Assembly (NCBI GenBank): GCA_019096065.1
Contig: JAGUCH010000002.1
Location: 694,501-758,500 of the forward strand
DNA: 64,000 nucleotides
Direction of reading: 5' to 3'
Origin: Paracyclopina nana
Lineage: Eukaryota > Arthropoda > Copepoda > Cyclopoida > Cyclopettidae
Below are positions 1,218-56,242 of this stretch, in pieces. The notes beneath the pieces are model-generated. The model saw only the letters and a program-made list of their open reading frames with translations. It made no database searches and had not been told where the DNA came from. A program made the position numbers and the translations under genes. Numbering within the stretch: position 1 is the first letter of the stretch; each line of letters begins with the position of its first letter.

Positions 1218-2159
1218 CAAATACGTATGGTGGAACCATGAATACATTGATCTCAACTACATCAATACTCAATTTTGAAAATGAGTGCATCATCACTTAT
1301 TGGAAAGGCGATGATTTTTGTGATGATGGAAACAACAATGAAGGCTGTGATTTTGATGGTGGTGATTGCTGCAACCCATTGGCTAATTTTGACTTTTGCA
1401 ACCTTTGCCAATGCTCTGATTTCAACATGAAGGATAACTACACCAAAGCTACAACTTATGGGCCAGAAATGTGTAATTCCATTTCTTAAGTCTATAAATC
1501 CATTTCTATTTCATCTTAGGCATTTCTGTTCTTATATGAGTTTGATTGTAGTTATGTGCAATTTTAGTATTGTTTCGTCCAAGCCAAATTTTTTTTTGTT
1601 AATGCATTGATAGAATCAAGTATTAGTTTGGCTTATTTTCAGATTGTGACTTTGGTGGGGTTTTGATTGGGTATGAGTGTTTTTGGCTGAAATCATATTC
1701 GAGAACTTTTGATGATGCAGTTGAACAGTGCAAAAGTCTTGACACAAAGCTGTATGAGCCAAGGGATGCCGCTAAATATTCCTTAGTTATGAAAGCATTC
1801 AGTCAACATGCTCAACCAATCTGGATTGGCATTACTAGACAGTCAACGTCAACGTACAATTAAAATGTATTTGGTTGCTATCTGTGAGAAAATAATAATA
1901 ATTATTTATTCAGATTTGTGTATCACAGTGATGGCTCTTATCTCATGTACTCCAATTGGAAGCCAGGAGAGCCAAGTTCGCCAAAAGGCTTGGCAGATTG
2001 TGTGCAAATTCATACAAATTTTGCACAATTTGGGCAGTGGCCAGATAACCAGCGCACAGAAATCCCGAAATCACACAATGCACACACCAGCCTCATTAAC
2101 CATAGAAACACACAGAAATCCCAAAATCATACATTGCACACAACCTCACTCATCTCACG

Positions 2160-5100
2160 TGCCTCATCAGCCTCACTCACCTCATCAACCTCACTCACCT
2201 CATCAACCTCACTCACCTCACAATCCTCATCAACCTCACTCACCTCACTCACCTCACTCTCCTCACAATCCTCACTCACCTCATCAACCACACAATCCTC
2301 ATCAACCTCACAATCCTCATCAACCTCACTCACCTCACTCGCCTCATCAACCACACAATCCTCATCAACCTCACTCACCTCACAATCCTCATCAACCTCA
2401 CTCACCTCACTCGCCTCATCAACCTCACTCACCTCACTCGCCTCATCAACCTCACTCACCTCACAATCCTCATCAACCTCACTCACCTCACTCGCCTCAT
2501 CAACCTCACTCACCTCATCAACCTCACTCACCTCACAATCCTCATCAACCTCACTCACCTCACAATCCTCATCAACCTCACTCACCTCACTTGCCTCATC
2601 AACCTCACTCACCTCACAATCCTCATTAACCTCACTCACCTCACTCGCCTCATCAACCTCACTCACCTCACAATCCTCATCAACCTCACTCACCTCACTA
2701 GCCTCATCAACCTCACTCACCTCATCAACCTCACTCACCTCACTCACCTCATCAACCTCACTCACCTCACAATCCTCATCAACCTCACTCACCTCACAAT
2801 CCTCATCAACCTCACTCACCTCATCAACCTCACTCACCTCACAATCCTCATCAACCTCACTCACCTCACAATCCTCATCAACCTCACTCACCTCACTTGC
2901 CTCATCAACCTCACTCACCTCACAATCCTCATTAACCTCACTCACCTCACTCGCCTCATCAACCTCACTCACCTCACAATCCTCATCAACCTCACTCACC
3001 TCACTAGCCTCATCAACCTCACTCACCTCACCAACCTCACTCACCTCACTCACCTCACCAACCTCACTCACCTCACAATCCTCATCAACCTCACTCACCT
3101 CACAATCCTCATCAACCTCACTCACCTCACTCGCCTCATCAACCTCACTCACCTCATCAACCTCACTCACCTCATCAACCTCACTCACCTCACAATCCTC
3201 ATCAACCTCACTCACCTCACAATCCTCATCAACCTCACTCACCTCACTCGCCTCATCAACCTCACTCACCTCACTCGCCTCATCAACCTCACTCACCTCA
3301 TCAACCTCACTCACCTCACAATCCTCATCAACCTCACTCGCCTCACAATCCTCATCAACCTCACTCACCTCACAATCCTCATCAACCTCACTCACCTCAC
3401 TTGCCTCATCAACCTCAGTCACCTCACAATCCTCATCAACCTCACTCACCTCACTCGCCTCATCAACCTCACTCACCTCACAATCCTCATCAACCTCACT
3501 CACCTCACTCGCCTCATCAACCTCACTCACCTCACTCGCCTCATCAACCTCACTCACCTCATCAACCTCACTCACCTCACAATCCTCATCAACCTCACTC
3601 ACCTCACAATCCTCATCAACCTCACTCACCTCACTCGCCTCATCAACCTCACTCACCTCACAATCCTCATCAACCTCACTCACCTCACTCGCCTCATCAA
3701 CCTCACTCACCTCACAATCCTCATTAACCTCACTCACCTCACTAGCCTCATCAACCTCACTCACCTCACAATCCTCATCAACCTCACTCACCTCACTAGC
3801 CTCATCAACCTCACTCACCTCATCAACCTCACTCACCTCACTCACCTCATCAACCTCACTCACCTCACAATCCTCATCAACCTCACTCACCTCACAATCC
3901 TCATCAACCTCACTCACCTCATCAACCTCACTCACCTCACAATCCTCATCAACCTCACTCACCTCACAATCCTCATCAACCTCACTCACCTCACTTGCCT
4001 CATCAACCTCACTCACCTCACAATCCTCATTAACCTCACTCACCTCACTCGCCTCATCAACCTCACTCACCTCACAATCCTCATCAACCTCACTCACCTC
4101 ACTAGCCTCATCAACCTCACTCACCTCATCAACCTCACTCACCTCACTCACCTCATCAACCTCACTCACCTCACTCGCCTCATCAACCTCACTCACCTCA
4201 TCAACCTCACTCACCTCACTCACCTCACAATCCTCATCAACCTCACTCACCTCACTCGCCTCATCAACCTCACTCACCTCATAATCCTCTTCAAACTCAC
4301 TCACCTCACAAATCTCATCAACCTCACTCACCTCACTCACCTCACTCGCCTCATCAACCTCACTCACCTCACTCGCCTCATCAACCTCACTCACCTCATC
4401 AACCTCACTCACCTCACAATCCTCATCAACCTCACTCGCCTCACAATCCTCATCAACCTCACTCACCTCACAATCCTCATCAACCTCACTCACCTCACTT
4501 GCCTCATCAACCTCAGTCACCTCACAATCCTCATCAACCTCACTCACCTCACTCGCCTCATCAACCTCACTCACCTCACAATCCTCATCAACCTCACTCA
4601 CCTCACTCGCCTCATCAACCTCACTCACCTCACTCGCCTCATCAACCTCACTCACCTCATCAACCTCACTCACCTCACAATCCTCATCAACCTCACTCAC
4701 CTCACAATCCTCATCAACCTCACTCACCTCACTCGCCTCATCAACCTCACTCACCTCACAATCCTCATCAACCTCACTCACCTCACTTGCCTCATCAACC
4801 TCACTCACCTCACAATCCTCATTAACCTCACTCACCTCACTCGCCTCATCAACCTCACTCACCTCACAATCCTCATCAACCTCACTCGCCTCACAATCCT
4901 CATCAACCTCACTCACCTCACAATCCTCATCAACCTCACTCACCTCACTTGCCTCATCAACCTCACTCACCTCACAATCCTCATCAACCTCACTCACCTC
5001 ACTCGCCTCATCAACCTCACTCACCTCACAATCCTCATCAACCTCACTCACCTCACTCGCCTCATCAACCTCACTCACCTCACTCGCCTCATCAACCTCA

Positions 5101-6472
5101 CTCACCTCATCAACCTCACTCACCTCACAATCCTCATCAACCTCACTCACCTCACAATCCTCATCAACCTCACTCACCTCACTCGCCTCATCAACCTCAC
5201 TCACCTCACAATCCTCATCAACCTCACTCACCTCACTTGCCTCATCAACCTCACTCACCTCACAATCCTCATTAACCTCACTCACCTCACTCGCCTCATC
5301 AACCTCACTCACCTCACAATCCTCATCAACCTCACTCACCTCACTAGCCTCATCAACCTCACTCACCTCATCAACCTCACTCACCTCACTCACCTCATCA
5401 ACCTCACTCACCTCACAATCCTCATCAACCTCACTCACCTCACAATCCTCATCAACCTCACTCACCTCATCAACCTCACTCACCTCACAATCCTCATCAA
5501 CCTCACTCACCTCACAATCCTCATCAACCTCACTCACCTCACTTGCCTCATCAACCTCACTCACCTCACAATCCTCATTAACCTCACTCACCTCACTCGC
5601 CTCATCAACCTCACTCACCTCACAATCCTCATCAACCTCACTCACCTCACTAGCCTCATCAACCTCGCTCACCTCATCAACCTCACTCACCTCACTCACC
5701 TCATCAACCTCACTCACCTCACAATCCTCATCAACCTCACTCACCTCACAATCCTCATCAACCTCACTCACCTCACTCGCCTCATCAACCTCACTCACCT
5801 CATCAACCTCACTCACCTCATCAACCTCACTCACCTCACAATCCTCATCAACCTCACTCACCTCACAATCCTCATCAACCTCACTCACCTCACTCGCCTC
5901 ATCAACCTCACTCACCTCACTCGCCTCATCAACCTCACTCACCTCATCAACCTCACTCACCTCACAATCCTCATCAACCTCACTCGCCTCACAATCCTCA
6001 TCAACCTCACTCACCTCACAATCCTCATCAACCTCACTCACCTCACTTGCCTCATCAACCTCAGTCACCTCACAATCCTCATCAACCTCACTCACCTCAC
6101 TCGCCTCATCAACCTCACTCACCTCACAATCCTCATCAACCTCACTCACCTCACTCGCCTCATCAACCTCACTCACCTCACTCGCCTCATCAACCTCACT
6201 CACCTCATCAACCTCACTCACCTCACAATCCTCATCAACCTCACTCACCTCACAATCCTCATCAACCTCACTCACCTCACTCGCCTCATCAACCTCACTC
6301 ACCTCACAATCCTCATCAACCTCACTCACCTCACTTGCCTCATCAACCTCACTCACCTCACAATCCTCATTAACCTCACTCACCTCACTCGCCTCATCAA
6401 CCTCACTCACCTCACAATCCTCATCAACCTCACTCACCTCACAATCTTCATCAACCTCACTCACCTCACTCG
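2160..6472. repeat. Left-arm minisatellite of 9-bp modules with higher-order repeats
   Basis: About 4.3 kb built from 9-bp modules of the form CTCAnnnnC: mainly CTCACTCAC, CTCACAATC, CTCATCAAC, CTCACTCGC and rarer CTCATTAAC. Modules combine into 18- and 27-bp units and then into long higher-order units: the same block starting near 3401 recurs near 4499, 4949 and 6047, giving spacings of 1098, 450 and 1098 bp. A rare variant block occurs once near 4280-4320. Because every module is a multiple of three bases, several frames on both strands are free of stops for kilobases. I take these frames to be by-products, not genes. Confidence 0.92.
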
Positions 6473-6473
6473 C

Positions 6474-9400
6474 GCTTTGGTGCGCTATATCTCGATGAAC
6501 AGTAGATCATTTTTTTATTTCATAGCAATTGATATCTCCACTTTTTCTTGCACTACTTCTTAACGAAAAGCTCTTTGTAGTACCTGGTACATGGCACTGT
6601 ACTTAAAACTCGGTAAGCATGCCAAAATTCGAAAAATGTTCCGATTTTGGATCTCTTTACAGTTTTGGAAAAGGGAGATCAAAATGACCACTTTTTAATA
6701 CATTGTAAACAAGATATCTTTGCGCCTTGTCTCCGTAAAACTCAGCAGTTAGGCTGTTATTAAGCGGTAAACTTTGGCACGCGATATCTCCGGTTCTATA
6801 CAAGATACTATCTGGCTCCAACTTGATACTGTGATGTCAGGGCTCTACAAGTTTTATTAGTAGTCGCTTTTAAGTCTTCAAATTCATGAAAAAGTCAAAG
6901 AAGGACTTAAAGGAAGACTTGGCAGGAAGGATTGCCCCTTATCCGTCATTTTTAGCCCCAAAAACAGCCCAAATTCGGAATGTAATATTCAGATGCGAAT
7001 CCGCAAAAATACGAAAAGCAAAACTACTGATTTTAGTTAAACCACGCTGATTCTGGTTAAACAAAACGCTACAAGAATGCCTACTTTGGAACAGCCATTT
7101 TTGCCCATGTTTTGAGCCGCCACATTAAGAAGACAAGGCCTTCATTTTCTTTGCAGTCTTTATGCTAGCTAAATAAGTAAAGTGGCACTTCCATTACCCA
7201 AATTCGGGCCCAAAATGGACAAGTAAACAAAGACTCTATATCTCAGCAACAGTGCGTCTCAGCTCACTTCTTTTTGCGGCTATGAATTCGTCTTGACATT
7301 CTCTATCACTTTTATTAGTACTTTTAAAGTCTCTCAGCGCATTTTCAGTTACGAAGTTCTGTACAGCTGAGAGCTTAGCGCTATCTCAGCCTGTATTTGT
7401 CCGATTTTAAAACTGTTTACTTCTATGAAATCCTGAGACTCAGCAGATCAATTTTTTATTTCATAGCAAACGTGATATCTCCACTTTTATTAACGCTTCT
7501 CCTGAACGAAAAGCTCTATGTTGTACGTAGTACATAAGGCTGCGTTTCATCCATCTATTCAATGCCAAAATTAGAAAAATGCACCGATTTTGGAGCTATT
7601 TACAGTTTTGGAAATGGGAGATCAAACTGAACACTTTTTATTAGTAAATCATTCAAGCAACTCAGCTAGAAGTCTCCGCAAAACTCAGCAGTTAGGCTTC
7701 TATTAAGCAGTAAACTTTGGCGCGCGATATCTCCGGTTCTAGACCAGATATCTGGCTCAAATTTGAACCTATGAAGTCAGGGCCATCAGCTCTACAAGGT
7801 ATATTAGTAGTCAAATACCGTGGACCGACTTTTATTTGATCGGCCAAAAGTTGACGCGATCCGTTTTTCGCGGAAAAATTATACTCTAGAATGCAATTAA
7901 GTCTTCAAATTCATGAAAAAGTCCAAGAAAACAATAAGAGGAACACTTGGCTGCATGAATCCCCCTATTTCGAGCTGTTTTAAGCCCCCAAAACTCAAAA
8001 ATTCGGGCTCAAAAGCAAAAGTAAAAAAGACTATATAGTAAACTTTGGCGCGCGATATCTCAGCAACGTCTCAGCACCCATGAATTCGTCTTGACATTCT
8101 CTATCACTTTTATTGGTACTCAAAGTCTCTCAGCGCACTTTCATTGCGAAGTTGTGTACTGCTCAGAGCTCAGCGCTATCTCAGCAACGGAGCATCTCAG
8201 CACAATTCAATTTACGGTTTTGAAGCCAGGCTGATCTCCTCTACAACTTTGTACTTCATAGTCAAGTCCATAAAATGACTTGGGAAAAAGTTGAGTTTTC
8301 CCAAGGGGGTAGCCTTAGAAAAAGTGGCCGATTTTCCAAAGTGCTCCGATCCAGCTGAAACTTGGTACGACTGGTCTCCGTCACATTTTGAGCAGATAAT
8401 CTCAAGTCAACATAAGTCCAAAAACGCTCAGCAGTTGAGTTATTCAGCCTCCCATTTGACCCCATTTTCAGAACTTTGCTTAATAACTCAGCAGAATGAT
8501 GAGATATATGAAATGCCTTTACTGATAAATGATCACTGTCTTATGAGCTATTAGAAAGTGTCATCAGTTTTTTTCACAGCTAAGCTGGTTCTCTGCTGAG
8601 CAGGGTTTTATGCTGTGCATATCTAGCTAAATAACTCCGCTGCTGAGCTGCTGAGCGCCAAAACCTTTGGTGTGCTGACTCATGGCATCTAGTAAATCAT
8701 TTGTACTAAGTCTCAGCCAAATCGGAGAACTCAGCGAAAAAGTGCACTTTTTCTTGGGGCTCAGCAGTAGTAAACTTTGACGATCCATATCTCAGCAACG
8801 GAGCGTCACAGCTCAGATCAATTTACTGTTCTGAAGTCGTGCTGAGCTCCTCTACAACTTTGGACTTCAAAGTCAAGTCCACAAGTCCACTTCCAAGTCC
8901 GCTTGTTCTGTACTGCTCAGCGCTCAGCGCTATCTCCGCTCATAGTTGTCCGATTTTAAAACTGTTTACACTTTTGGAATCCAGAGACTCAGCAAAACAA
9001 ACTTTTATATCATAGTAAAGTTGATATTTCCACTTTTACACCCGCCAGTTCTGAACGAAACGCTCTATGTAGTACGAAGTACATAAAGCTGCCGTTTTAT
9101 CCGTCTATCATATGCCAAAATTCGAAAAAAGCTCCGATTTTGAAGCTCTCTACAGTTTTGGAAATGAGAGCTCAAACTGTACACTTTTTATTACATAGTA
9201 AACAAGATAGCTCCGCTAGAAGTCTCCGCAAAACTCAGCAGTTGGGCTGCTATTAAGCGGTAAACTTTGGCGCGCGATATCTCCGGTTCTAGACTAGATA
9301 TCTGGAACCAATTTGATTCTATGAAGTCAGGGCAACCTCCTCTACAAGGCTTATTAGTAGTCAAAGCCCGCATTTCAACTTTAAATCGATCGCACGAAAT

Positions 9401-9628
9401 TCGACGCGAACCGTTTTTCGCGGAAAATTCCACTCTAGAACGCCATAAAATTCATTAAAAAGTCAACGAAAAGACTGCAAGACAGACTTAGGAGTAAAAA
9501 TTCCCCCGTTTCCAGCTGTTTTAGCCCCAAAAAGACAAAAAATTCGGGCTTAAAAGGAAAATATATCTGCTTTTACTTGGGCTAATTTTAATCATTACCG
9601 AGTTTTAAGTACTGGGTTATGTAATACA
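6474..9628. other. Non-array core of the foldback element
   Basis: AT-rich sequence lying between the two inverted arrays. It contains diverged internal repeats: a block with GGTAAACTTTGG followed by GCGATATCTCCGGTTCTA occurs near 6765-6800, 7708-7745 and 9258-9295, each with similar flanks covering about 170 bp, and several CTCAGCAG/CTCAGCGC motifs recur. The longest frames here are under 90 codons with no recognisable domain. Nothing resembling a transposase, its DDE/D motifs or a zinc-finger DNA-binding domain was seen. Confidence 0.6.
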
Positions 9629-9629
9629 A

Positions 9630-12360
9630 GGCGAGTGAGGTCAGTGAGGTTGATGAGGTGAGTGAGGTTGATGAGGCGAGTGAGGTGAGTGAGGTTGATG
9701 AGGCAAGTGAGGTGAGTGAGGTTGATGAGGATTGTGAGGTGAGTGAGGTTGATGAGGATTGTGAGGTGAGTGAGGTTGATGAGGCGAGTGAGGTGAGTGA
9801 GGTTGATGAGGATTGTGAGGTGAGTGAGGTTGATGAGGCGAGTGAGGTGAGTGAGGTTGATGAGGATTGTGAGGTGAGTGAGGTGAGTGAGGTTGATGAG
9901 GATTGTGAGGTGAGTGAGGTTGATGAGGTGAGTGAGGTGAGTGAGGTTGATGAGGTGAGTGAGGTGAGTGAGGATTGTGAGGTGAGTGAGGTTGATGAGG
10001 CGAGTGAGGTGAGTGAGGTTGATGAGGATTGTGAGGTGAGTGAGGTGAGTGAGGTTGATGAGGATTGTGAGGTGAGTGAGGTTGATGAGGTGAGTGAGGT
10101 GAGTGAGGTTGATGAGGTGAGTGAGGTGAGTGAGGATTGTGAGGTGAGTGAGGTTGATGAGGCGAGTGAGGTGAGTGAGGTTGATGAGGATTGTGAGGTG
10201 AGTGAGGTTGATGAGGATTGTGAGGTGAGTGAGGTTGATGAGGTGAGTGAGGTGAGTGAGGTTGATGAGGTGAGTGAGGTGAGTGAGGATTGTGAGGTGA
10301 GTGAGGTTGATGAGGCGAGTGAGGTGAGTGAGGTTGATGAGGCGAGTGAGGTGAGTGAGGTTGATGAGGATTGTGAGGTGAGTGAGGTTGATGAGGATTG
10401 TGAGGTGAGTGAGGTGAGTGAGGTTGATGAGATTTGTGAGGTGAGTGAGTTTGAAGAGGATTATGAGGTGAGTGAGGTTGATGAGGCGAGTGAGGTGAGT
10501 GAGGTTGATGAGGATTGTGAGGTGAGTGAGGTGAGTGAGGTTGATGAGGTGAGTGAGGTTGATGAGGCGAGTGAGGTGAGTGAGGTTGATGAGGATTGTG
10601 AGGTGAGTGAGGTGAGTGAGGTTGATGAGGCGAGTGAGGTGAGTGAGGTTGATGAGGATTGTGAGGTGAGTGAGGTTGATGAGGCGAGTGAGGTGAGTGA
10701 GGTTGATGAGGCAAGTGAGGTGAGTGAGGTTGATGAGGATTGTGAGGTGAGTGAGGTTGATGAGGATTGTGAGGTGAGTGAGGTTGATGAGGCGAGTGAG
10801 GTGAGTGAGGTTGATGAGGATTGTGAGGTGAGTGAGGTTGATGAGGCGAGTGAGGTGAGTGAGGTTGATGAGGATTGTGAGGTGAGTGAGGTGAGTGAGG
10901 TTGATGAGGATTGTGAGGTGAGTGAGGTTGATGAGGTGAGTGAGGTGAGTGAGGTTGATGAGGTGAGTGAGGTGAGTGAGGATTGTGAGGTGAGTGAGGT
11001 TGATGAGGCGAGTGAGGTGAGTGAGGTTGATGAGGATTGTGAGGTGAGTGAGGTGAGTGAGGTTGATGAGGATTGTGAGGTGAGTGAGGTTGATGAGGTG
11101 AGTGAGGTGAGTGAGGTTGATGAGGATTGTGAGGATTGTGAGGTGAGTGAGGTTGATGAGGTGAGTGAGGTTGATGAGGTGAGTGAGGTTGATGAGGTGA
11201 ATGAGGTGAGTGAGGCTGATGAGGCACGTGAGGTGAGTGAGGTTGATGAGGTGAGTGAGGTGAGTGAGGTTGATGAGGTGAGTGAGGTGAGTGAGGATTG
11301 TGAGGTGAGTGAGGTTGATGAGGCGAGTGAGGTGAGTGAGGTTGATGAGGCGAGTGAGGTGAGTGAGGTTGATGAGGATTGTGAGGTGAGTGAGGTTGAT
11401 GAGGATTGTGAGGTGAGTGAGGTGAGTGAGGTTGATGAGATTTGTGAGGTGAGTGAGTTTGAAGAGGATTATGAGGTGAGTGAGGTTGATGAGGCGAGTG
11501 AGGTGAGTGAGGTTGATGAGGATTGTGAGGTGAGTGAGGTGAGTGAGGTTGATGAGGTGAGTGAGGTTGATGAGGCGAGTGAGGTGAGTGAGGTTGATGA
11601 GGATTGTGAGGTGAGTGAGGTGAGTGAGGTTGATGAGGCGAGTGAGGTGAGTGAGGTTGATGAGGATTGTGAGGTGAGTGAGGTTGATGAGGCGAGTGAG
11701 GTGAGTGAGGTTGATGAGGATTGTGAGGTGAGTGAGGTGAGTGAGGTTGATGAGGATTGTGAGGTGAGTGAGGTTGATGAGGTGAGTGAGGTGAGTGAGG
11801 TTGATGAGGTGAGTGAGGTGAGTGAGGATTGTGAGGTGAGTGAGGATTGTGAGGTGAGTGAGGTTGATGAGGCGAGTGAGGTGAGTGAGGTTGATGAGGA
11901 TTGTGAGGTGAGTGAGGTGAGTGAGGTTGATGAGGATTGTGAGGTGAGTGAGGTTGATGAGGTGAGTGAGGTGAGTGAGGTTGATGAGGATTGTGAGGTG
12001 AGTGAGGTTGATGAGGCGAGTGAGGTGAGTGAGGTTGATGAGGATTGTGAGGTGAGTGAGGTTGATGAGGCGAGTGAGGTGAGTGAGGTTGATTAGGATT
12101 GTGAGGTGAGTGAGGTTGATGAGGATTGTGAGGTTGATGAGGATTGTGAGGTTGATGAGGTGAGTTAGGATTGTGAGGATTGTGAGGTGAGTGAGGTTGA
12201 TGAGGATTGTGAGGTTGATGAGGTGAGTGAGGATTGTGAGGAGAGTGAGGTGAGTGTGGTTGATGAGGATTGTGAGGATTGTGAGGTGAGTGAGGTTGAT
12301 GAGGTGAGTGAGGTTGATGAGGTGAGTGAGGTTGATGAGGTGAATGAGGTGAGTGAGGCT
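9630..12360. repeat. Right-arm minisatellite, inverse of the left arm
   Basis: About 2.7 kb of the reverse complement of the left-arm modules (GTGAGTGAG, GTTGATGAG, GATTGTGAG, GCGAGTGAG). It is shorter than the left arm and arranged differently. The rare variant found once in the left arm appears twice here, near 10430-10465 and 11434-11475, about 1 kb apart. A copy of the outer-edge signature (GAGGCTGATGAGGCACGTG) also lies internally near 11214-11232, which suggests an internal duplication of the arm. Confidence 0.9.
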
Positions 12361-12829
12361 GATGAGGCACGTGAGATGAGTGAGGTTGTGTGCAATGTGT
12401 GATTTTGGGATTTCTGTGTGTTACTATGGTTAATGAGGCTGGTGTGTGCATTGTGTGATTTCGGGATTTCTGTGCGCTGGTTATCTGGCCACTGCCACAA
12501 TTTGGCAAATGGAATGACAAATCTTGTACTTCTGCATCAACCAAAGCATACTCAATTTGCCAAGGTATACAGGAAAGTAAAGTAAAATATTATCTATTTT
12601 GCTCATCACTTTTAAATGACAGCACATTGTCCAATGCTTTTCTCAATACAAACTGTGCTCATGATTTAACTCGTGTGCTTTTCTCTTTGTAAAATAATGG
12701 ATAATAATCAATCAATCATGTGCAGAGCACATAATGATGTTACTAATGTATAAAGCAAGCTGCTTTTCTGAGCAAGCATAGTATAATAGTATTAAGACAA
12801 AATGCTCTTTGCACTATTTATATTAGATG

Positions 12830-14280: not shown

Positions 14281-16354
14281 ATGGCCAACCCTAAGATTAG
14301 AGTTTTCACAGTTATGGGAATTTCTGCGATTCTTGTTGGAACTATTATTGCAGCTATTTATACAACATTTTCAAAACTACCAATAGAGAATCAGGAGACA
14401 ATAAATGGTATAAAGTTCCATTTTCATTAATCCAACATACTCTTATGTCTTCAATTTAGATTGCAACTATTGTATTTTCCCATTTGAGTTCCAGGGAGTT
14501 GAATTTACAGATACTTGTGCTGAAATGGGTGATCATTACATCTGTCCCATGAGCGTAAATTACATAGGCTCATTAAGTCACAGAAAGCTTGCGATATGCC
14601 CTACAAGAGAGCGATGCCAAATAAACATAGAAACCAACATCACATCTAATAGGATTGGAACCAGTAACACAGTGAGCTTACCTATTCGACATTTTGACAA
14701 TGAGTGCATACATGAAAATTGGAAAGGGGATGATTTTTGTGATGATGGAAACAACAATGAAGGTTGTGATTTTGATGATGGCGATTGCTGCAACCCATTG
14801 GCTAATTTTGACTTCTGCAACCTTTGTCAATGCTCTAATTACACCAAGACATCTAATGACACTAACAGCACTACAAGTGGAGCTGAAATGTGTAATCACA
14901 TCTATCTACTATTTTTCTTTTTATTTAGCACGCATTATTGAATTATAGCCACTTTAACATTCAGAGCTTATTCAATTAAAATTACCTTTGCTGTGTTTAA
15001 AGCACAAAATATAAATTGTTTTGATTTCTTTTCAAATATTTTCACATTATTTATGATTTCAGATTGTGATCATAATGGGGTTTTGATAGGAGTTGAGTGC
15101 TTTTGGCTGGAAACATATTTGAGGACATTTGTTGATGCGGTTGAACAGTGCAAAAGTATTGATTCAACGCTGTACGAACCAAGAGATGCAGAAAAATATT
15201 CCATGGTGATGAAAGCATTCAGTCAAAATGTTCAACCAATCTGGATTGGCATTACTCGGCAGGCAACACCAATGTATAATAAAAATGGATTTGTGGTATG
15301 TTATAAACAAATTTTTATTTAGGTTTGTGTATCATAGTGATGGCTCTAACCTCACATACTCTAATTGGAAGCCAGGAGAGCCAAGTTCACCAAAAGGCTT
15401 GGCTGATTGTGTGCAAATTCATACAAATGATGCAGAATTTGGAAAATGGAATGACAAATCTTGCTCTTTTCTAGCCAATAAGGCATATTCAATTTGCCAA
15501 GGTAACCTAAAAAAGTCAAATTATAATTGATTAACGCAAAAAAATGCTATCAATGATGATATGAGCAAGCTTTAGCACACATTATCTCAATTCAGTTTAG
15601 CATTGCTTGTTTGCAATGGAAAGAATTGTGCTCAAAGGTTTTGTCAATGTGCTCATGGCTCATTTCAAGGTGCTCATTTCAATTTGGTGTCGTAGCTCAT
15701 TCCAATGAGGTCATAGTTCATTTCCTTGATCATACAGCTCATTTTGGTGTGCTCATACCTTGTTTTGAATGACCGCATAACTTATTTCATATGTGCTCAT
15801 CACTGATTTTAATGTGCTCATTTCAAACATCCTCACAACTTAACTCAATTTCTCAATCTCTCAACATATATTAAAAAGTGCTCAGAGCTCAGTTCAATGT
15901 GCTCAGAGCTCAGTTCAATGTGCTCAGAGCTCAGTTCAATGTGCTCAGAGCTCAGTTCGATGTGCTCAGAGCTCAGTTCAATGTGCTCAGAGCTCAGTTC
16001 AATGTGCTCAGAGTTCAGTTCAAGTGTTATAGCTTACCTCTTGATTGGCACTCATGGTTTATTCAATTTCATTAAATTACCATTACTTTGCAATCTTTTC
16101 AAATAGCTATGGTCAATTTTTGTGTCGTTTAAGTGGTTTTACCAACCAAACAAACATATTTTTATTTTAAAGGCCATGCCAAGATGACAACAGAGCTCCC
16201 TTGCTACTATGGTTTAGCTGTTGGTGACGGAATGTGTGATGATGTAACAAATAATGCTGTATGCAATTTTGATGGAGGAGATTGCTGCTTGCCCCAAATA
16301 TTTGTTATGTGTTCTGAATGCATTTGCAGGGAAGATGGCAGGAGGCATACATGA
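14281..16354 (+). CDS. Type II membrane protein with FN2-like, two LNR and C-type lectin domains
   Basis: Five exons (14281-14407, 14460-14891, 15063-15273, 15323-15501, 16173-16354) with consistent phases encode about 376 residues. Residues ~8-30 are a signal anchor (VMGISAILVGTIIAAIY). A Cys domain follows, starting DCNYCIFPFEF, that resembles a fibronectin type II module. Next comes an LNR (WKGDDFCDDGNNNEGCDFDD then GDCC), then a C-type lectin domain (FWLETYLRTFVDAVEQC, WIGITRQ, YSNWKPGEPSSPKGLADC, WNDKSC), then a C-terminal LNR (VGDGMCDD, CNFDGGDCC). The ectodomain should face the cell exterior and could bind glycans, but the canonical EPN/QPD sugar-binding triplet is not obvious. Introns are short (49-170 bp) except the last (671 bp), which holds a minisatellite. 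Tandem duplicate of the disrupted gene upstream. Function unknown; the architecture is well supported. Confidence 0.88.
15879..16026. repeat. 21-bp tandem repeat, about 7 units
   Basis: Seven near-identical 21-bp units containing GTGCTCAGAGCTCAGTTC, in the last intron of the intact LNR/lectin gene. Surrounding sequence (15620-15870) has degenerate GTGCTCAT units. Confidence 0.9.
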
Positions 16355-19300
16355 ATGAGTGAACCAAAAAATGGCTGGCCATGAATAAAAAAAAAATTTT
16401 GCTCCCAAAAGACTGTTTTTTCTGACAGTATTAAACATGGAATAAAACCACTGTAAAAACACATCCAATGGTACAAGAGTTTTTTTCGTGAGTAATATGC
16501 TTCATTTGGTCTTACTAAAGCCAGATTAAGCAAGATTCGCCTTAAAATTGATCATTATACAGATTATTATGTTTTTGATAGCACTTATATGACAGTTTCT
16601 TGGCCGGTTATTCATTAACATATGACTTGACCCATGTCAATGTGCTCAAAGATGGATGATTTCATAGTGCTCAAATCTTATGTCAATGCGCTCAAAGTAA
16701 ATTTAAATGTGCTCAAAGCTATCAATTTACACAAAGCCAAAATTCAAGCCAAGTCTGCATTTTGCTACTGGAGATCAAAGTTGAGATAATATATGAAATG
16801 CAGTAAACATATTTGTTTTGATAAGTGAGGTTCTGTGATTCACATACTCTGAAATTCCGAGAAAATAATTAGCCATTAAATAATATCACAACTTTTTTCG
16901 ATTTGAAAAAAGGCTAATTTACCATGCTACTCCAAGTTGCATTTCAGCTGAGATTTAGAATTTTTGCACCATCATCTTAACCTTATTGAGCATATCTTTA
17001 CGACTTAGGCAATAAAAATGTGCTACTTTGCTATAGGAAAAAGTGACAAAACAATCGTAGAGTCCTGTCAGCCGTGAAGCCAAAGATTGCTAGCACAGTG
17101 GATAAATTGAGCATTTTATCTAAAGCGTTTCCCTTTGTAAAATTGACAGAATGTGCTCATCCCATCTGATGTTGCTTTTTACTTATCATATTTTGTTGAC
17201 TTCTGCTGATTGTTTATTGGCTTGTGCATATTGTTTATTGACTAGTGCTCATTGTTAATTGACTTGTGCTCATTGTTAATTGACCATTGCTCATTGTTTA
17301 TTGACTAGTGCTCATTGTTAATTGACTTGTGCTCATTGTTAATGGACCATTGCTCATTGTTTTTTGACTAGTGCTCATTGTTAATTTACTTGTGCTCATT
17401 GTTAATTTTCTTGTGCTCATTCTTAACTGACTTGTGCTCATTATTAATTGACTTGTGCTCATTATTAATTGACTTGTGCTCATTGTTAGTAGACTTGTGC
17501 TCATTGATATTAACTTGCGCTCATTGTTAATTAACTAGTGCTCACTGTAAATTGACTTGTGCTCATTGTTATTTGACTTGTGCTCATTGCTAATAAAGCT
17601 GTGCGCATCCTTAATTGAGCTGTGTTACTAATTAATTGAGGTGTGCTCATCATCAATAAAGTTGCACTTATCTTTAATTGAGCTGTGCTCAACCTTATTT
17701 GTGTGGCACTTAAGTGATTTTGTGGCAGAACTTTGCTCTTCCTTTAAGCCCGTGTAATTTAGAAAAATGGTATATACACAATAAGCTGTTATGTATTTTA
17801 GATGCATTAAGTGCTTTTTAGCCAGGGATGCCCCGCAGTGGCCACTGCCCAATTCTTCAATTTTTGGCGGGCCAAAATTTGAAATTTGAGATGGCTTTTG
17901 TTATCTTTCTTTATATTTGCATCTAAAGAAACGAGGATTTATGATAAGTGTTTTCTGCTGTCAAGTCAAATTGGTTGATGGACACGTTAGCACAGCCAAA
18001 CCTTAAAAATGCTTGGTTGAAATATATATAGAAATGCACAGAGGAGTGTAGAAAAAGTGACATCCGGCCCAGAGTGGATTTCCGACCAACTTGGGCACAC
18101 TGTGCTTTTTGTAGTAAAAACGTTGCGTCAGCTAGCGCGCAACGGAAATAGCGCGCTAGTTAACTTGGTAGTTTTCATCTGCCAAAGCAGCAATCAACAT
18201 CATCATCAAAATTACCAAGGACAAAAGCAAAAATTGATCTTTTTTCCATGAGAAAATCCAAAATAATTCAAGGTAACTGACATTTTCAAATACATTTTAA
18301 AATAAGTCAAATATAGATTTCTTTATTTTTTTAAAAAATACTGCACTTTTGGTGAATTGTTGTAACTTATGAAATGGAAATGGCAAAAATTGTTAAAAAA
18401 ATCCAATTAATTCAAAATTGCTCATTCAAAGGCCAAAAATACAATTTTAGACTTTTTAAAATAAATCTTAATTCTTGCTAATGAAAGGTGAACTTCAAAA
18501 TATGTTCAAAGTAACTTTTGAAATTGTTTTCCAAAAGAGATGCTATCAGTTTTTGCTTAAGCCTCAAATATTTTATTGTGCGTCAATTCTCCTATTTTCG
18601 GCTCACAGTCACGAACAGAAAATAATGAGGGGATTTCTACCATAAAACCGTACAATTACTTTTTCACAGTGAGCCATAGCAAAAAAATTGCTTAAAATCC
18701 GCCTTGAAGTACCCTGATTTTGAGTTTGAATTATTTTTTACGATTTACGTTTTTTTAGTGTTTCGGCCCAGTGTGCTCCCCATTTAATAATACAACGGGC
18801 AACAGATGATGCCGTTGAGAGATTTCACTTTCACGCTCAACTTTAATGCACACTGGGCCGAAATGTGGGCAAAACGCAAAAATTGGAAATTCATCGAAAA
18901 CTTGACTTTTCCTCGTTTCTTCAAACTCAAATTGTTTTTCGTCAATTTCAGCTAATCTTAGAATAAAGGGTGATTCAAAAAAGCGATATATTACAGTTAA
19001 ACTGTGATTAAACACTTTGACGCATTCGGCAAAAAATTGCCTTATTAAAAATTCTCATTGTTATGCTGTATTGTGTTGGCTTACTTGCCAAGGTTGCAAA
19101 TTAAATTATAATTCGCGTGAAATGGCTCATTTCCATATTCTACAATTCCTTCGAGGCCAAAAAATGGTTCATTTCAAAGTTTTTGGCTCAAGTCAATTTA
19201 ACCCATTTTTGACATGCCATTGCAAATTTGTAATTGCTCTCTTGGAATATGATTCCCCATCATGATCATATTTTGCCTCAAAATTGAGATTTGAGCCCCG

Positions 19301-19505: not shown

Positions 19506-22500
19506 ATGAAGAGTGAGCCTTTGAAGCCTGGATTTCGCGGATTGTCCTTCAGCAGCAGCAGCCCTTTGACTGCTAAACCAGAAGCAGGATCGAATAATAG
19601 CACCGCAGCTGAAATTCCGCATAACTCTTGCTTCCTCGTCAATGGCAAAGAACGAAAATTGTCCAACTCATATTTGCGTTTTCAACGCCGATACTCCAAG
19701 CATGGGTGAGTTATGCTGTTGTTACACCTGGTTAGCTCCTATAGTTGATGCGCTTCACCTAGTTCCACGATAAAAATCACATCAATCCAATCACAAAAAT
19801 GTAGCAACAGGAGAAAACGCTTTGTTTCCTTATTACAGGAGGAAAATGGTAGGATATCAGTAGTGTATCAGAAGCGTATGATAATAGTCCCATTAAGTCT
19901 CAGTAAATTATCCATAGAGTCTTTGTATAAGTCTCAGTAGAGTGTGAGTATAATCACATAAGTCTCAGTAATGTCTCCTTGTTGTTGGAGTTAAGTTATC
20001 AATTTTCAAGTTCTCAGTAGAGTCTCAGTAGAGTCTCAGTAGAGTCTCAGTAGAGTCTCAGTAGAGTCTCAGTAGAGTCTCAGTAGAGTCTCAGTAGAGT
20101 CTCAGTAGAGTCTCAGTAGAGTCTCAGTAGAGTCTCAGTAGAGTCTCAGTAGAGTCTCAGTAGAGTCTCAGTAGAGTCTCAGTAGAGTCTCAGTAGAGTC
20201 TCAGTAGAGTCTCAGAAGAGTCCCATTAAGTGGAGTCTCTGTAGAGTCTCAGTAGTCTAAGAAGAGTCTCAGTAGAGTCTCAGAAGAGTCTCAGAAGAGT
20301 CTCAGAAGAGTCCCATTAAGTGGAGACTCTGTAGAGTCTCAGCATTCTTATTATGGTCTCAGTAGAGTCTCAGAAGAGTCTCAATAAGTATCAGTAGGGT
20401 CTCAGTAGAGTCTCAGTAGTATTTGCTGCTTATTCTTAAAACTGCCACAATAAACTGTAAATGGTCTTACTCTAAAGAGTATTATTGCAGTTTTATTAGG
20501 CCCAATGAAGAGCAATGCAGGTTTAATCCTCTCAGCTTCAAGATTGAGGGTGTGTAGCCTCCTTTTTGTGAATGCAAGCATTGTAGCTCTGTTTCAATTG
20601 CTCTTGCCAAAAAAGTGATCATTTTGGACATAATGGCTATTGAAAACCTCTTCCAGGGTTTGAATAGAAATGTTTATGAGCCAAGTTCTTTTCCAAGCCA
20701 TAATTGATTCTCAATATATAAAAAAATATCCAGCCAAGTGTTCATTGGCTCCTTTTGGAGCCATCGAGGAAAATTCTTAATTTCACTCATGGCTTTTCAG
20801 GACCAAGGATGCCATTTATGATTTCAAAGAAGGCTCGGTGCACATGCACCTAAGAGGCAAACCAGTTCAGTTCTTTGCGCCTTCCACTCTCAGAAATAAC
20901 TACAGCTTAACCGGTTCTCACAACAACAACAAAATCAGCCCTAGTCAGCTGACCCTGGACTGGGTATATGGGTACAGGGGAAAAGATGCCAGATCTAACC
21001 TGTTCCTTTTGCCCACTGGTGAACTGGTTTATTTTGTGGCGTCAGCTGTTGTCCTGTTCAACCCTGAGATCCACAAACAGCGTCACTACTTGGGCCACAC
21101 TGAAGAAGTCAAATGGTAAGCATAAAAGCCATTTTTGCGTATATCTAGGTTTGATAACAATTTTGACTTTTTAAAGTTATCAGTTTGTTTACACTATTTA
21201 TTGTCTTAATCGTCAGCTGGTAGTTTACTAATAACCAGGTTTGATAACTTTTATCAGCTGGTAGCCTACTCCATCAGCTACTTTTTTTCCGCATCAGTTG
21301 TTTGTTTACTGCATCAGCTGTTTGCTTATTGCATCAGCTATTTGGTTTCGTGCATCAGCTGTTTGTTTACTCTATCAGCTGTTTGATTTTTCATCAGTTG
21401 TTTGTCTACTCCATCAGCTATTTGTTTTCTGCATCAGCTGTTTGCTTGATGCATCAGCTGTTTGTTTATTGCATCAGCAACTTTTTTATTCATCAGCTGT
21501 TTGTTAACTGTATCAGCTGTTTATTCACTGCATCAGCAGTTTGTTTATTGCATCAACTGTTTGTTTATTGCATCAGCTGTTTGTTTTTTGCATCAGCTGT
21601 TTGTTTATTGCATCAGCTGTTTGTTTACTGCATCAGCTGTTTTGTTAAGTGCATCAGCTGTTTGTTTATTGCATCAGCTGTTTGTTTATTGCATCAGCTG
21701 TTTGTTTATTGCATCACCTGATTGTAAACTGCATCAGCTGTTTGTTTACACCCATTTGAATGACAACAGCTGCAACAGCTGTTTTTTGTTTATTTTTCCA
21801 AACTCATTGAACTTATCACAGGAAAATCAACTAAGCTATTTAGGATTCTAATAATTTTCGACTAAACTTGGCATTGCTGCTACTCATGCTTTGACTTGTA
21901 GTTCTTGCCATACATTTGCTTGACTTGCTCAAAGGTCAGATCATTGGTGGGCACTCCCAATGCAGCTGCCATGACATTCCTCACATTGGCAGCATACAAA
22001 TTGGGGTCTGAGATCTCTGCTTGACTAGGCTCATACACTGGAAGGAATTCCAAGCTTGCTTTGCTAAAAGGTTGAGACAGGGTGAGCCACATGATGGTTC
22101 TAGCACCATGAGGCTGGTTCCAAGTCCAAGTCACTGTGTCAACTTCATTGGGGTACCTTAAGGGCCAAAATTTGCTCACATTTTTCTCTTGAGACCAAAA
22201 TTTCAAAGTAGTTTACCTTATGAGGATGGGTTGGACTGGTTTTCCTGGGACGAAGGCTCCAGGCTTGAAGGTCATCAAGGCCTTTCTGTTGGAAGTGGAG
22301 CCTTCAGGAAAGATCAAAAGTTGGGGCCATTTTTGGCCATCTTTGGAACGCTCAATGATCCGTTTGACCGTTTTTTGCCTGGATTCAGGGTCCTCCCTGG
22401 ACACAAACAGGGACTGGGCAAACTCGATGCATTTCCCCAGCAGGGGGATCTGCCTGTTTTCCTGCCTGCTCACTATGTAGGGCAGGCCACACCAGAACAC

Positions 22501-28341: not shown

Positions 28342-28393
<52 letters not shown>

Positions 28394-28929
28394 TGAAAGC
28401 TTATGCTCTGGGTGTTTGTTTGGTAGTAATTTTAAAATCCTGGCCTAGCGCTTCCCATATCATCAAATTTTAAAAAACTTCTAGCGCCGAAAGCATTGAC
28501 TTGGTCGGATTTTGTATGTATACCCCCAATAAAATTACAAGATCTATCTTTCTTTATTTCATAAGAAAATTGCTAGGATGCCCTGGAATCGAAATACAGT
28601 GGTGGCAGGTTTCTTCTTTGTCAAATGGCGTGAATTCATCAGTGGATGATGCGACCACAATATCTCGATTCCTGGGCATCCTAGCAATTTTTGTATGAAG
28701 TTAAGAAATATAGATCTCGCAATTCTAGTGGGGGTATATTAACATACAAAATCCGACCAAGTCAATGCTTTCGGCGCTAGAAGTTTTTTAAAATTTGATG
28801 ATATGGGAAGCGCTAGGCCAGGATTTTAAAATTACTACCAAACAAACACCCAGAGCATAAGCTTTCAGAATATGTATATATTTTAGGTGGGCAATTTTTT
28901 TGGGTTGCAATAGCTCTCAGGTTGATGTG
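28311..28929. mobile_element. 619-bp palindromic (foldback) MITE
   Basis: Starts CACATCAACCTGAG and ends CTCAGGTTGATGTG, flanked on both sides by TAGT (28307-28310 and 28930-28933), read as a 4-bp target duplication. The two halves are inverse copies of each other over roughly 270 bp each, for example GACTTGGTCGGATTTTGTATGT near 28499 and its inverse near 28745. A (TA)n tract at about 28346-28391 is present only in the left half. No coding capacity. It lies about 300 bp downstream of the EML stop codon. Confidence 0.85.
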
Positions 28930-31999: not shown

Positions 32000-34900
32000 A
32001 TGAGGGTGAGTTGGTATTTTTATTGCGAAATGGTCAGCTGACGCCGGCCGAGGCTGGCTGAGATGCGGGCCGGTGCGGCGGGCGCGTTCTGCCCTGACCC
32101 GTGCGCGCTCTGCAAAATGTAAACAAACTCAATTAAACTTGAGCTACCAGAGTTTTGAGGCCGAAAATAGCCAGAAAATTAATGAATTTACTTAAATTGA
32201 CGGCATAATTAGCCCATAAATGTCGGAAATGAAGGAGAACTGATCTTTTTGGCGGAAATTGAGCCGTTTTATGGCAGTAATTCACGTTTTTCGGAAATTG
32301 CAGCCAACAACAGTGATTTTTTTTAATTATAAAAAGCTGGCTTCAAAATGAGTGACAAGATGTAAAAAAACACTGATGGCAACTTTTGTGCATGCATTAT
32401 TATTATTACTATGGTGCACAGTGGGCGTGAGAGCCAAAATGGTGTCAGAATTTTTCCCATATTTGAAAATCCTCCATTATTACCAGACTAATTTGTGAGA
32501 AAACTGTTTGATTTCCAGTATGCAATCTTGAGTCAAATCCTGTGCTGTGATTAACTCAGGCATAGCTAAGACAAATTAATGAACTTGGCCAGCCATGAAT
32601 ATAATACTTTTCATAAAAATAAGTACATTTTTTCTTTTACTGAGCTTGCACTTAAACTTGGAGCCATCTGCTTTGGATTTTTGTAGCTTTTCGAATATAT
32701 TTTGCTAATGCTCAGATGCAAAAGATGCAATAATTTATGGCAAGAATAGCCAAAGGGCCATTTTTGTAAGTATCAAATATTCCCCCGAGCTTTTCGAATT
32801 TGACAATCATTTTTTGCTAATTTCCATATATAAAGTTTCAAAAACTTCCTTTTTCATGCAATTTTGCATGTGTTTTTCGGATTTTTAAAATAAGTCCTCT
32901 CTGATTTATGACTTAAAAAGTAAAAATAAGAAGTTAAAGTAATTTGGAAAATTGCAACTTAAATAATCATGTTAGCGTTCAAATCACAGCTGAATTTTGC
33001 TTGCTTTTTTGAAGGAAACGAAAATAAAACAATCTTGGCCAGTGTGTGTGTTTGAACAATGTCAGAAGTATTTTATAAAAAGATTTCACAATGCAGTTTT
33101 TGGCTCTACTTTGTAATCGGATTAACTCATTTCTTGGTAGGGAAAAAATAATAATTAACTTTTGCTCATGTGAGCCAACTTTTTATGCCCAAAATTATCG
33201 TGTTCAGACACATCAATTACATTCAAGGTCTTTTTTCGATCTATCTTCTTCTTCTTAATAAAGGGATGAGAAATAGACAAAACATGTGGGCTGAATTCCA
33301 ACAAGATTGCTTTTTCCATTAATTTGTCATTTTTCATTTACACTTCGCCTCTGCATTCATTTAAAAATGTATTTTGGTCCATTTTTATACATATTGGTCC
33401 ATTTTTTATCCTAAGATACATTTTGGTCCACTTGTATCTTTTTCATAAATTTTGCAGCATTTTTCATATTTTGATCCATTATTTACAATCTAGTCCATTT
33501 TTTTATTTGTATTTGGTTCCTTTTGTAGAATTTCGGTCCATTTTGTTGGATTTTGATCCATTTTGTTGAATTATGGTTTTTTTAATAACAAGCTCTACTT
33601 TCCTATTACAACTTTGGGCTAAATTGGGCCAAATTTGGGCCAAAAGATGCAATTTGTCAACTATAAAACAATTTAATTGATCCTTGTTGATCCTTTTAGA
33701 TCAAGTAGGTCAAATTTGTCCATTTAGATCGAGTTGATCCTTTTAGATCAAGTAGGTCAAATTTGTCCATTTAGATCAAGTTGGTCCAATTAGATCAAGT
33801 TGGTCTAATAAGATCAAGTACTTCCATTTAGATTTAGTTGGTCCTTTTAGATCAAGTTGGTCCAGTTAGATCAAGTTGGTCCTTTTAGATCAAGTTGGTC
33901 CAGTTTTATCAAGTTGGTCCAGTTAGATCAAGTTGGTCCTTTTAGATCATGTTGGTCCAGTTAGATCAAGTTGGTCCAGTTAGATCAAGTTAGTCCATTT
34001 ATATCAATTTTTTGATTTAGATCAAGTTGGTCCATTTAGATCAAGTTGGTCCATTTAGATCAAGTTGGTCCATTTAGATCAAGTTAGTCCAATTAGATCA
34101 GGTTGGTCCAATTAGATCTAGTTGGTCCTTTTACATCAAGTTGGTCCATTAAGATCAAGTTGGTCCTTTTAGATCAAGTCGGTCCATTTATATCTAGTTG
34201 CTCCAAGTAGGTCTAGTTGGTCCTTTTAGATCAAGTTCTTCCATTTTTATCAAGTAAGTCCATTTTACACCTTTTGGTACCACTTTTACTACTGATTGGC
34301 AGATTTAGGTCCATTTTGATTGATGTCATCATTTCTCATCAATTTAGTGCATTTTTGAAGTATTTCAGCTAACACATTGACAAAAATAGTATAAATTACC
34401 TTTGCTTTTTAGACATGTATTTTCAGCCTAGTTTATTATGGTGATTGCAGTTTTTTTTTCTATCATGGTGTGTGACAGAAAAAAGGTGACCAAGCTCAAT
34501 TATTTTTCTCAAGTCAAGGTCTTTTGTCTCTGATGATATGCTCAATTCCAGCCAGTCAAAAAGATCATTCTTCATTGCTACATAGAAGCAAGCAGATTGG
34601 CAAATAATAAGTATGGGCTGATTGTACACTTTTAAGTTTGAAATGATGTCATAGCCTTAGTCACGACTCTTGTGGTTCTTTAAGAACTAATTGTGCTGGT
34701 ATCTTCAGTTACCAGCAAAAAATCTTGGGAAAACATGACTTTGCCACATTATTGCATTTTTTCTTTTGTTTGATTGTTCAAAGTAACTCAAGCTCATCAA
34801 AGTAATGGCAGACCACTTATGATAATGGACTGGAATGGTGAAATGGGCCTTAATGCATGTTAAAATTTGTCAAAATTTGTTTGCCAAGACAAATTTTTTT

Positions 34901-52534: not shown

Positions 52535-55486
<2,952 letters not shown>

Positions 55487-56222
55487 GCAGTTTTCAACAT
55501 TTCACTTCAGCTTTGTTCCCCATAAGAGCACACTTTCAATGTCAATGGCCAATGCTGAAATCTTCACCAAAGGATTCCATCTTTGAGCATGGGCCAGCAA
55601 AAAATGGCAAATGTGTTGCCATCATTTTAATCACTTGAGCTCCAAGCCAAAATATGAAACGTGTGTAATTGTCATGGACATCTTTTAAAGCCCGGTTAGA
55701 AACTGGCAAAGCCATAGAACACTCTCTGATCAAATTTTGTTAAAAACATTGAAAAATCTTGAAATCTGCATGGCATCAACCCAACAATGAAAGTTATTAT
55801 GAAATTCCACAAATCAAAAAGATGGCAAAGTTGGCATAAGTGAGAAGTTTTCGATAGTTCATTTCGGCTTTGTTTCCTGATCAGACACACTTCGAATGTA
55901 AATGGCCTCCTCCAGGATCTTCTCTGGAGGATGTTCATCTTCGTACATGTAGGAGCAGGCAATGGCCGATGTGTTGCCATCAATTTTTAAAATTACTTGA
56001 GCTCCAAGCCAAAATATGAAATGTGTAGAATTGTCATGGACATCTTTTAAAATGACCAGTTAGAAACTGGCAAAACCATAGGTCACTCTCTGATCAAATT
56101 TTGTTAAAAACATAGAAAAATCAAGAAATCTGCCTAGCATCAACCCGACAATGAAAGTTATTATGAAATTCCACAAATCAAAAAGTTGGCATAAGTTAAA
56201 CACTAGTCTAGTATTTAGCATA
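55487..56222 (-). repeat. Tandem duplication of the BUB3 3' end, two extra copies
   Basis: Two units of about 357 and 384 bp precede the genuine BUB3 3' exon. Each carries a copy of its last coding part followed by shared 3' sequence with ACTTGAGCTCCAAGCCAAAA (near 55633 and 55992) and AATGAAAGTTATTATGAAATT (near 55785 and 56150). The unit nearest the collagen gene is the most diverged. This is a stepwise tandem duplication in the tail-to-tail gap between two genes. Confidence 0.88.
55859..55983 (-). pseudogene. Duplicated BUB3 C-terminal exon fragment with intact frame
   Basis: On the minus strand this reads about 40 codons matching the end of BUB3 ([31 protein letters not shown]) and ends with a stop at the same place. 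Differences are few (for example LEE for PEE). The frame is intact, but upstream WD-repeat sequence is missing, so on its own it is a gene fragment; use as an alternative 3' exon cannot be excluded because no good acceptor was identified. Confidence 0.82.
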
Positions 56223-56242
56223 AGTGAGCAGTTTTCGATAGT

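Follow-up and report, generated by a model that had tools for sequence, protein, structure and literature searches.

A putative non-autonomous foldback transposon with minisatellite arms in a lectin exon of Paracyclopina nana, and its dispersed family

The window, that is, the whole stretch of 64,000 bp analysed here, carries a mobile element of 10,464 bp at positions 2033-12496, flanked by perfect 8-bp duplications (ACAATTTG) and lodged in an exon of a C-type lectin gene. This element is very probably a non-autonomous foldback DNA transposon, with long terminal inverted repeats (TIRs), and its family numbers dozens of copies across the genome. The features on which this reading is built are as follows.

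1642-1848, + strand: first lectin exon (Lectin_C, PF00059), by domain match
1909-2032, + strand: interrupted lectin exon, 5' part, including one copy of the duplication, by reading frame
2025-2032, no strand: left target site duplication ACAATTTG, by direct reading
2033-2185, + strand: left terminal inverted repeat, starting GGCAGTGGCCAGATAACCAGCGCACAGAAATCCC, with 2 mismatches to the right end over 153 bp
2053-2164, + strand: two subterminal repeats of ~56 bp sharing CACAGAAATCCC[G/A]AAATCA, from a side-by-side print
2162-6469, + strand: left arm, a minisatellite of 9-bp units in 18/27-bp order (Tandem Repeats Finder, unit count)
6473-9628, + strand: core (middle) with diverged internal direct repeats, by self-comparison
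9629-12388, - strand: right arm, the left-arm minisatellite inverted (Tandem Repeats Finder, unit count)
12344-12496, - strand: right terminal inverted repeat, by comparison with the left end
12497-12504, no strand: right target site duplication ACAATTTG, by direct reading
12505-12563, + strand: interrupted lectin exon, 3' part, by reading frame
15062-15500, + strand: tandem lectin paralog (exons 15062-15268 and 15318-15500), uninterrupted at the corresponding site

The ends of the element read GGCAGTGGCC and GGCCACTGCC and differ at 2 positions over the first ~153 bp; further in, the two arrays are no longer in register. The original prediction, made from the same letters, had counted the two mismatches correctly but had set the length of the termini at about 142 bp; its perfect 8-bp duplications are indeed identical at both sites, and its inverse arrays of 4.3 kb and 2.7 kb and its 3.1-kb core agree with our measurements of 4.3 kb, 2.76 kb and 3.16 kb. 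The internal direct repeats of the core, of ~77% identity, are an additional observation that it did not contain. Inside each end, two 56-bp repeats are followed by arrays of 9-bp units, and the internal subterminal repeat is also visible in terminus matches elsewhere in the assembly; we infer that these CACAGAAATCCC repeats are candidate transposase-binding sites. The left arm comprises 471 counted units, nearly all of 9 bp, and the right arm 295, the commonest being CCTCACTCA, CCTCATCAA and CCTCACAAT; at fixed register the two arms show 77-80% complementarity. The arms carry long open frames on both strands, which we attribute to the 9-bp period and do not take as evidence of coding; the ORF list holds no frame of 150 aa or more in the core.

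When the flanks are joined without the element and one duplication, a C-type lectin frame is restored (...NFAQFGKWNDKSC...; ...NFAQFGKWNDKSCTSASTKAYSICQ), as had been claimed for the exon on both sides of the insertion. The rejoined exon is 85% identical over 61 residues to the paralog exon at 15318-15500, which reads ...NDAEFGKWNDKSC... (...NDAEFGKWNDKSCSFLANKAYSICQ), and the paralog is intact, as predicted. Lectin_C matches cover the exon preceding the insertion and both paralog exons. In its present state the interrupted frame extends into the left arm and meets its first stop at 4282.

The window contains other repeats. At 28347-28881 a near-perfect inverted repeat of 140 bp (28380-28519 / 28742-28881, 99% complementary) comes after a (TA)n run and encloses another, nested inverted repeat; the structure resembles a small hairpin or MITE-like element. 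A 187-bp inverted repeat (53139-53655, 86% complementary) lies between collagen-like-looking frames, Tandem Repeats Finder reports a 384-bp tandem duplication of 2.1 copies at 55603-56366, and short-period minisatellites with different units are found across the window, for example at 15878-16023, 17196-17650, 20012-20419 and 33753-34265.

The assembly that contains the window (G000; 91,952,342 bases in 10 contigs, C1 to C10) holds many further termini. A 148-bp terminus query gave at least 52 matches (40 of 83 candidates scored), and the 20-bp terminus GGCAGTGGCCAGATAACCAG, with up to 3 mismatches, gave 64 + 66 = 130; because its reversed control gave 1 + 1, this recurrence is not due to chance. 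A 34-bp sister terminus (...GATATCCAGCGCACAGAATCCCC) was found 39 + 43 = 82 times against 0 + 0 in the control. Many of the terminus matches form inverted neighbour pairs, others being single or out of order. The exact 29-bp terminus had 0 matches in viral contigs and 0 in genome contigs, a search that is little informative for an animal element.

The original prediction depended on inverted pairs of the terminus recurring elsewhere with 8-bp duplications, and it survives: perfect 8-bp duplications flank 25 of 27 adjacent inverted pairs, namely 11 of 11 complete pairs in a first set (in which three further regions held one end only), then 6 of 7 and 8 of 9. Since the pairs were picked for neighbouring ends with few mismatches, this rate is valid for well-kept copies. 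One of the two exceptions is identical at 7 of 8 positions; the other has no duplication, its ends come from two different subfamilies, and it is unlikely to be a real pair. C8:1299212/1303967 was rejected as a pair, and two other pairings, of 1299212 with 1310590 and of C1:11054202 with C1:11039710, did not match. Across the 25 perfect duplications the inner four positions are AT-rich (87 of 100, against 60% expected from window composition), and no target palindromy is seen in them (30 of 100 positions, against a mean of 34.8 after shuffling).

The 11 fully read copies measure from 4,564 to 30,137 bp, a 2.7-kb copy was also read, and two pairs of 53.4 kb (C3:4075315-4128744) and 30.4 kb (C3:1636274-1666723), known from their ends alone, have perfect duplications. 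The copy at C9:1530528-1536227 combines one AACCAG end with one ATCCAG end inside a perfect CCTAATTT duplication, and C2:4327469-4336444 has similarly mixed ends; ends of two subfamilies can thus be moved as one unit. The copies are dispersed, with a single between-element match among the flanks of 11 copies (87 aligned positions, 71%). As in foldback-type TIR transposons, long inverted repeats with tandem repeats surround a variable middle, and target duplications of fixed length occur at independent sites with unrelated flanks.

Our comparison of cores points to recent movement, as the original prediction had suggested. The core of the copy at C4:8172225 is 98.1% identical to that of the window over 3,095 aligned positions, and that of C8:2882964 matches it in pieces at 99.5% (1,435 positions) and 96.7% (1,662). 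All three copies have both arm/core junctions in common, the left junction differing among them at a few bases, but they carry different duplications and no match was found among their flanks up to 950 bp; the copies were therefore made by transposition, and segmental duplication as their source is ruled out by the unrelated flanks. Hence, the family is a recently active, non-autonomous foldback one.

The terminus is constant and the arm repeat variable. The arms are made of CCTCA-type 9-bp units in 10 of 11 copies, C5:7277785 having another 9-bp unit, and the sister copy C2:8923108 bears, by eye, a different repeat of ~100 bp inverted at its two ends; the terminus is thus combined with two or more plainly distinct arm repeats. 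Arm lengths range from ~0.9 to 5.3 kb by a density rule (the right arm of C3:6564098 being left out), and left and right are often unequal. The terminal 105 bp, compared end against end, show 0-3 differences in 10 of 11 copies and 22 in one. The longest run common to the two window arms is 19 identical units, against a maximum of 11 in shuffled order (30 trials); 64 identical units in succession are common to the window right arm and the left arm of the C8 copy, while in the window left arm 69 units recur at an offset of 292 units. It seems, then, that arm sequence is copied between the two arms of an element and also taken from other copies, probably by unequal exchange, conversion or synthesis-dependent repair.

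No transposase was found between the termini of any pair, the interiors read being those of 12 of the 26 pairs and one in part. In the latter (C1:11039710/11052974) the 5 of 13.3 kb that were read consist of satellite with no ORF above 103 aa; the 13.9-kb copy C5:7277785 has open frames. The two longest copies read inside, of 30 and 18 kb, contain nested retroelement-like inserts and no recognised transposase. In the 30-kb copy (C8:2882964-2913100, L031-L033) a ~14 kb LTR-type insert has a segment repeated at both sides, an integrase core in one piece at 30.2 bits, just below the Pfam cut-off of 32.6, and, by eye, frames of pol and possibly env type. In the 18-kb copy (C3:6564098-6582044, L043-L044) the retroelement-like insert has integrase core and DUF5641 domains, is presumably BEL/Pao-like and apparently lies in the right arm, to judge from the array at 6973-7886.

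Transposase-like genes do exist elsewhere in the assembly. The P-superfamily domain PF21787 and a P-protein query have 11 matches each and MULE domains with open frames number 5; none of these falls inside the 26 pairs when coordinates are compared by eye. Two P-type transposase-like genes (L065 and L066) are 76% identical over 2.27 kb, and the PF21787 match of L066 is preceded by a frame that looks THAP-like by eye. The best terminus likeness in the surroundings of both is 4 errors in 15, and a third P locus, L068, has no terminus within 4 substitutions; these three loci may be host genes.

In the mechanism that we propose, a transposase made elsewhere would bind the shared terminus GGCAGTGGCCAGATA[A/T]CCAGCGCACAGAA..., and probably also the subterminal CACAGAAATCCC repeats, cut the element out and paste it in with an 8-bp staggered cut; such cut-and-paste would operate in trans, while the arms would grow through unequal exchange and repair, both inside one arm and from one arm to the other. 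P elements make duplications of 8 bp, and the duplications of the present family have that length, not the 7 bp of Galileo. Our tentative first choice for the motor is a P-superfamily (THAP) transposase, favoured over Muta1-like MULEs because the duplications are strictly of 8 bp and those MULEs mix 8 and 9. In Galileo, a foldback of the P superfamily, transposase sites lie within the repeated TIRs, and a P-type THAP domain can bind there (PMC3688188).

Possible, although on the unlikely side, is that a hAT or other 8-bp-duplication transposase, lost or too diverged for recognition, moves the family; an autonomous partner can be missing, as in Tetris, for which none was found (PMC4079207). The assembly has no hAT dimer domain and no KDZ match, two weak negatives since no control genome was positive for either, and no Merlin IS1595-type DDE transposase (one of 14 controls positive). 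hAT elements make 8-bp duplications, which would fit, and have a target pattern nTnnnnAn and CA ends; however, the pattern is not seen here (T at position 2 in 4 of 25 duplications, A at position 7 in 3 of 25), and the element ends start with GG.

We consider it unlikely that a Mutator-like (MULE) transposase moves the family, as it does Muta1 and Tm1, in spite of several likenesses. The 14 Muta families of Aedes all have duplications of 8-9 bp, 10 of the 12 with long TIRs have subterminal tandem repeats of 9-15 bp, and Muta1 has been termed a type-2 foldback (PMC5225508); Tm1 is assigned to a Mutator/Foldback family (PMC3169594), and the report on Tetris states that foldback elements seemingly belong mostly to Mutator (PMC4079207). 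In addition, the five MULE domains include one (C1:17718506) at 4.4 kb from a terminus (C1:17714075), on its outer side, a proximity that may be due to chance. However, all 25 perfect duplications here are of 8 bp, whereas Muta1 in yeast produced 8 bp in 21 of 60 cases and 9 bp in 39 of 60 (PMC5225508), a mix at which 25 straight 8-bp duplications would have a chance of ~0.35^25, and those of Tm1 (PMC3169594) and Tetris (PMC4079207) span 8-10 bp. Moreover, coordinates place no MULE between termini, and no such ends occur in the 5 kb around the MULE locus L067. An assembly or repair artefact, in which palindromic minisatellite was amplified with no mobile element involved, is practically inconceivable: inverted tandem arrays of this length are prone to poor assembly, and the arms do vary in length among copies, but the perfect duplications at 25 of 27 pairs, the different flanks and the common junctions refute it for the family.

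A search of the assembly with the core as query gave at least 165 matches (40 of 251 candidates scored). Of the best 43 of these 165, five lie in the window, C4 and C8 elements and 38 elsewhere; 28 of the 38 are less than 50 kb from a contig end (~1.1% expected by length, neighbouring rows not being independent) and 10 are interior. The end-near matches occupy at least 11 of 20 contig ends (both ends of C2, C3, C5 and C6, the start of C7 and the ends of C9 and C10), with repeat units for example at C2:15-33 kb, C3:1-39 kb and C6:7.150-7.164 Mb, and among the top rows listed all 15 at contig starts are on the + strand and all 13 at contig ends on the - strand. Two segments of the core are involved.

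8177-9561, + strand: core segment (query 1705-3089) matching the contig-end repeat, mostly at 86-87% identity
7198-8185, + strand: core segment (query 726-1713) matching the adjoining part of the contig-end repeat, at ~76-81%

Counting partial rows, the first segment ranges from 82 to 92%. The contig-end copies have 1705-3089 followed by 726-1713, an order that the C4 copy keeps beyond 3089. Because none of the terminus matches listed lies within 20 kb of the contig-end clusters, the latter do not look like whole elements. The telomere-type repeat TTAGG, which is compatible with an arthropod host, has 13,959 matches against 19 in the control, the first 100 listed places all being on C1, where arrays lie ~12.7 kb from the start and ~18 kb from the end, with some short interior ones.

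Core-like DNA also occurs in and around other elements. Their middles have weaker matches to the core (~65-88%), the flank of C7:5063678 holds a core-like stretch of 183 bp, and at C2:2261391, C8:1125022 and C2:7812420 (one end known) core-like DNA flanks the terminus on either side, a pattern compatible with insertion into such DNA or with capture from it. In 7 of 10 other copies the middles contain satellites of 159-169 bp. A 25-bp piece of the 169-bp unit has 245 + 206 matches against 0 + 0 in the control, and 100 listed places form 20 clusters, 5 of them within or beside known element ends; this satellite exists both inside and outside elements.

The core shares ancestry with the contig-end repeat, the element having either taken its core from there or seeded the repeat there. 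Whether the family as a whole trades DNA with chromosome ends, its middle being a captured subtelomeric repeat or the seed of one, is a proposition that we hold to be evenly balanced. If it is true, transposons would bring subtelomeric DNA to interior sites, in this case a lectin gene, or would deliver element DNA to subtelomeres, and homology would arise between chromosome ends and interior sites. Among the papers listed in the literature searched, which was covered in part, on foldback elements with subtelomeric repeats and on those of crustaceans, no case of this kind is described.

The foldback elements FB of Drosophila and TU of sea urchins have tandemly repeated arm domains, TU with 8-bp duplications and 15-bp repeats, and are likened to the present family by description alone. 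Foldback elements with repeat-built arms occur in sea urchins and plants too. Published accounts come from a few insects and nematodes (PMC5225508, PMC3169594, PMC4079207, PMC3688188). Among these, Muta1 and other Aedes MULEs share with the present family subterminal tandem repeats in the TIRs, non-autonomous copies and foreign middles, but Muta1 has a mixture of 8 and 9 bp, a TIR of 145 bp and a known transposase (PMC5225508), whereas only 8 bp is found here. Tm1 of root-knot nematodes likewise has composite TIRs with tandem motifs and non-autonomous groups, and differs in its mostly 9-bp duplications, asymmetric 7-bp end motifs and known transposase (PMC3169594).

The original prediction had named Galileo of Drosophila (P superfamily) as a parallel, and rightly so, its long inverted repeats being internally repetitive. 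It also resembles the present family in its variable arm length, its copies with ends of two subfamilies and its non-autonomous copies, but it has 7-bp duplications and a known transposase, its TIRs reach ~1.2 kb against ~5 kb for the arms here, and its chimeric copies, in the part of the reports available, are without matching duplications, which the mixed pair C9:1530528/1536227 does have (PMC3688188, PMC3573991).

By structure, the closest relative is Tetris of Drosophila virilis, a foldback without coding capacity, with tandem repeats in its TIRs, a variable middle and repeats that also form satellite-like arrays outside the element (PMC4079207). Its duplications of 8-10 bp stand against strictly 8 bp here, its 220-bp TIR repeats against 9-bp units and its three structurally complete copies against 26 pairs, and, unlike the present family, it has no subtelomeric link in the available part of the report; this comparison is one of descriptions, not of sequences (PMC4079207). 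Foldback elements with repeat arms are already known, and the link to subtelomeres is the unusual part. With dozens of copies, near-identical recent ones at unrelated sites and arms of up to ~5 kb, the family allows tests of how such ends are recognised by a transposase and of what keeps two arms alike, and the module common to middles and contig ends provides a concrete case for asking whether transposons are the builders of subtelomeres or draw on them.
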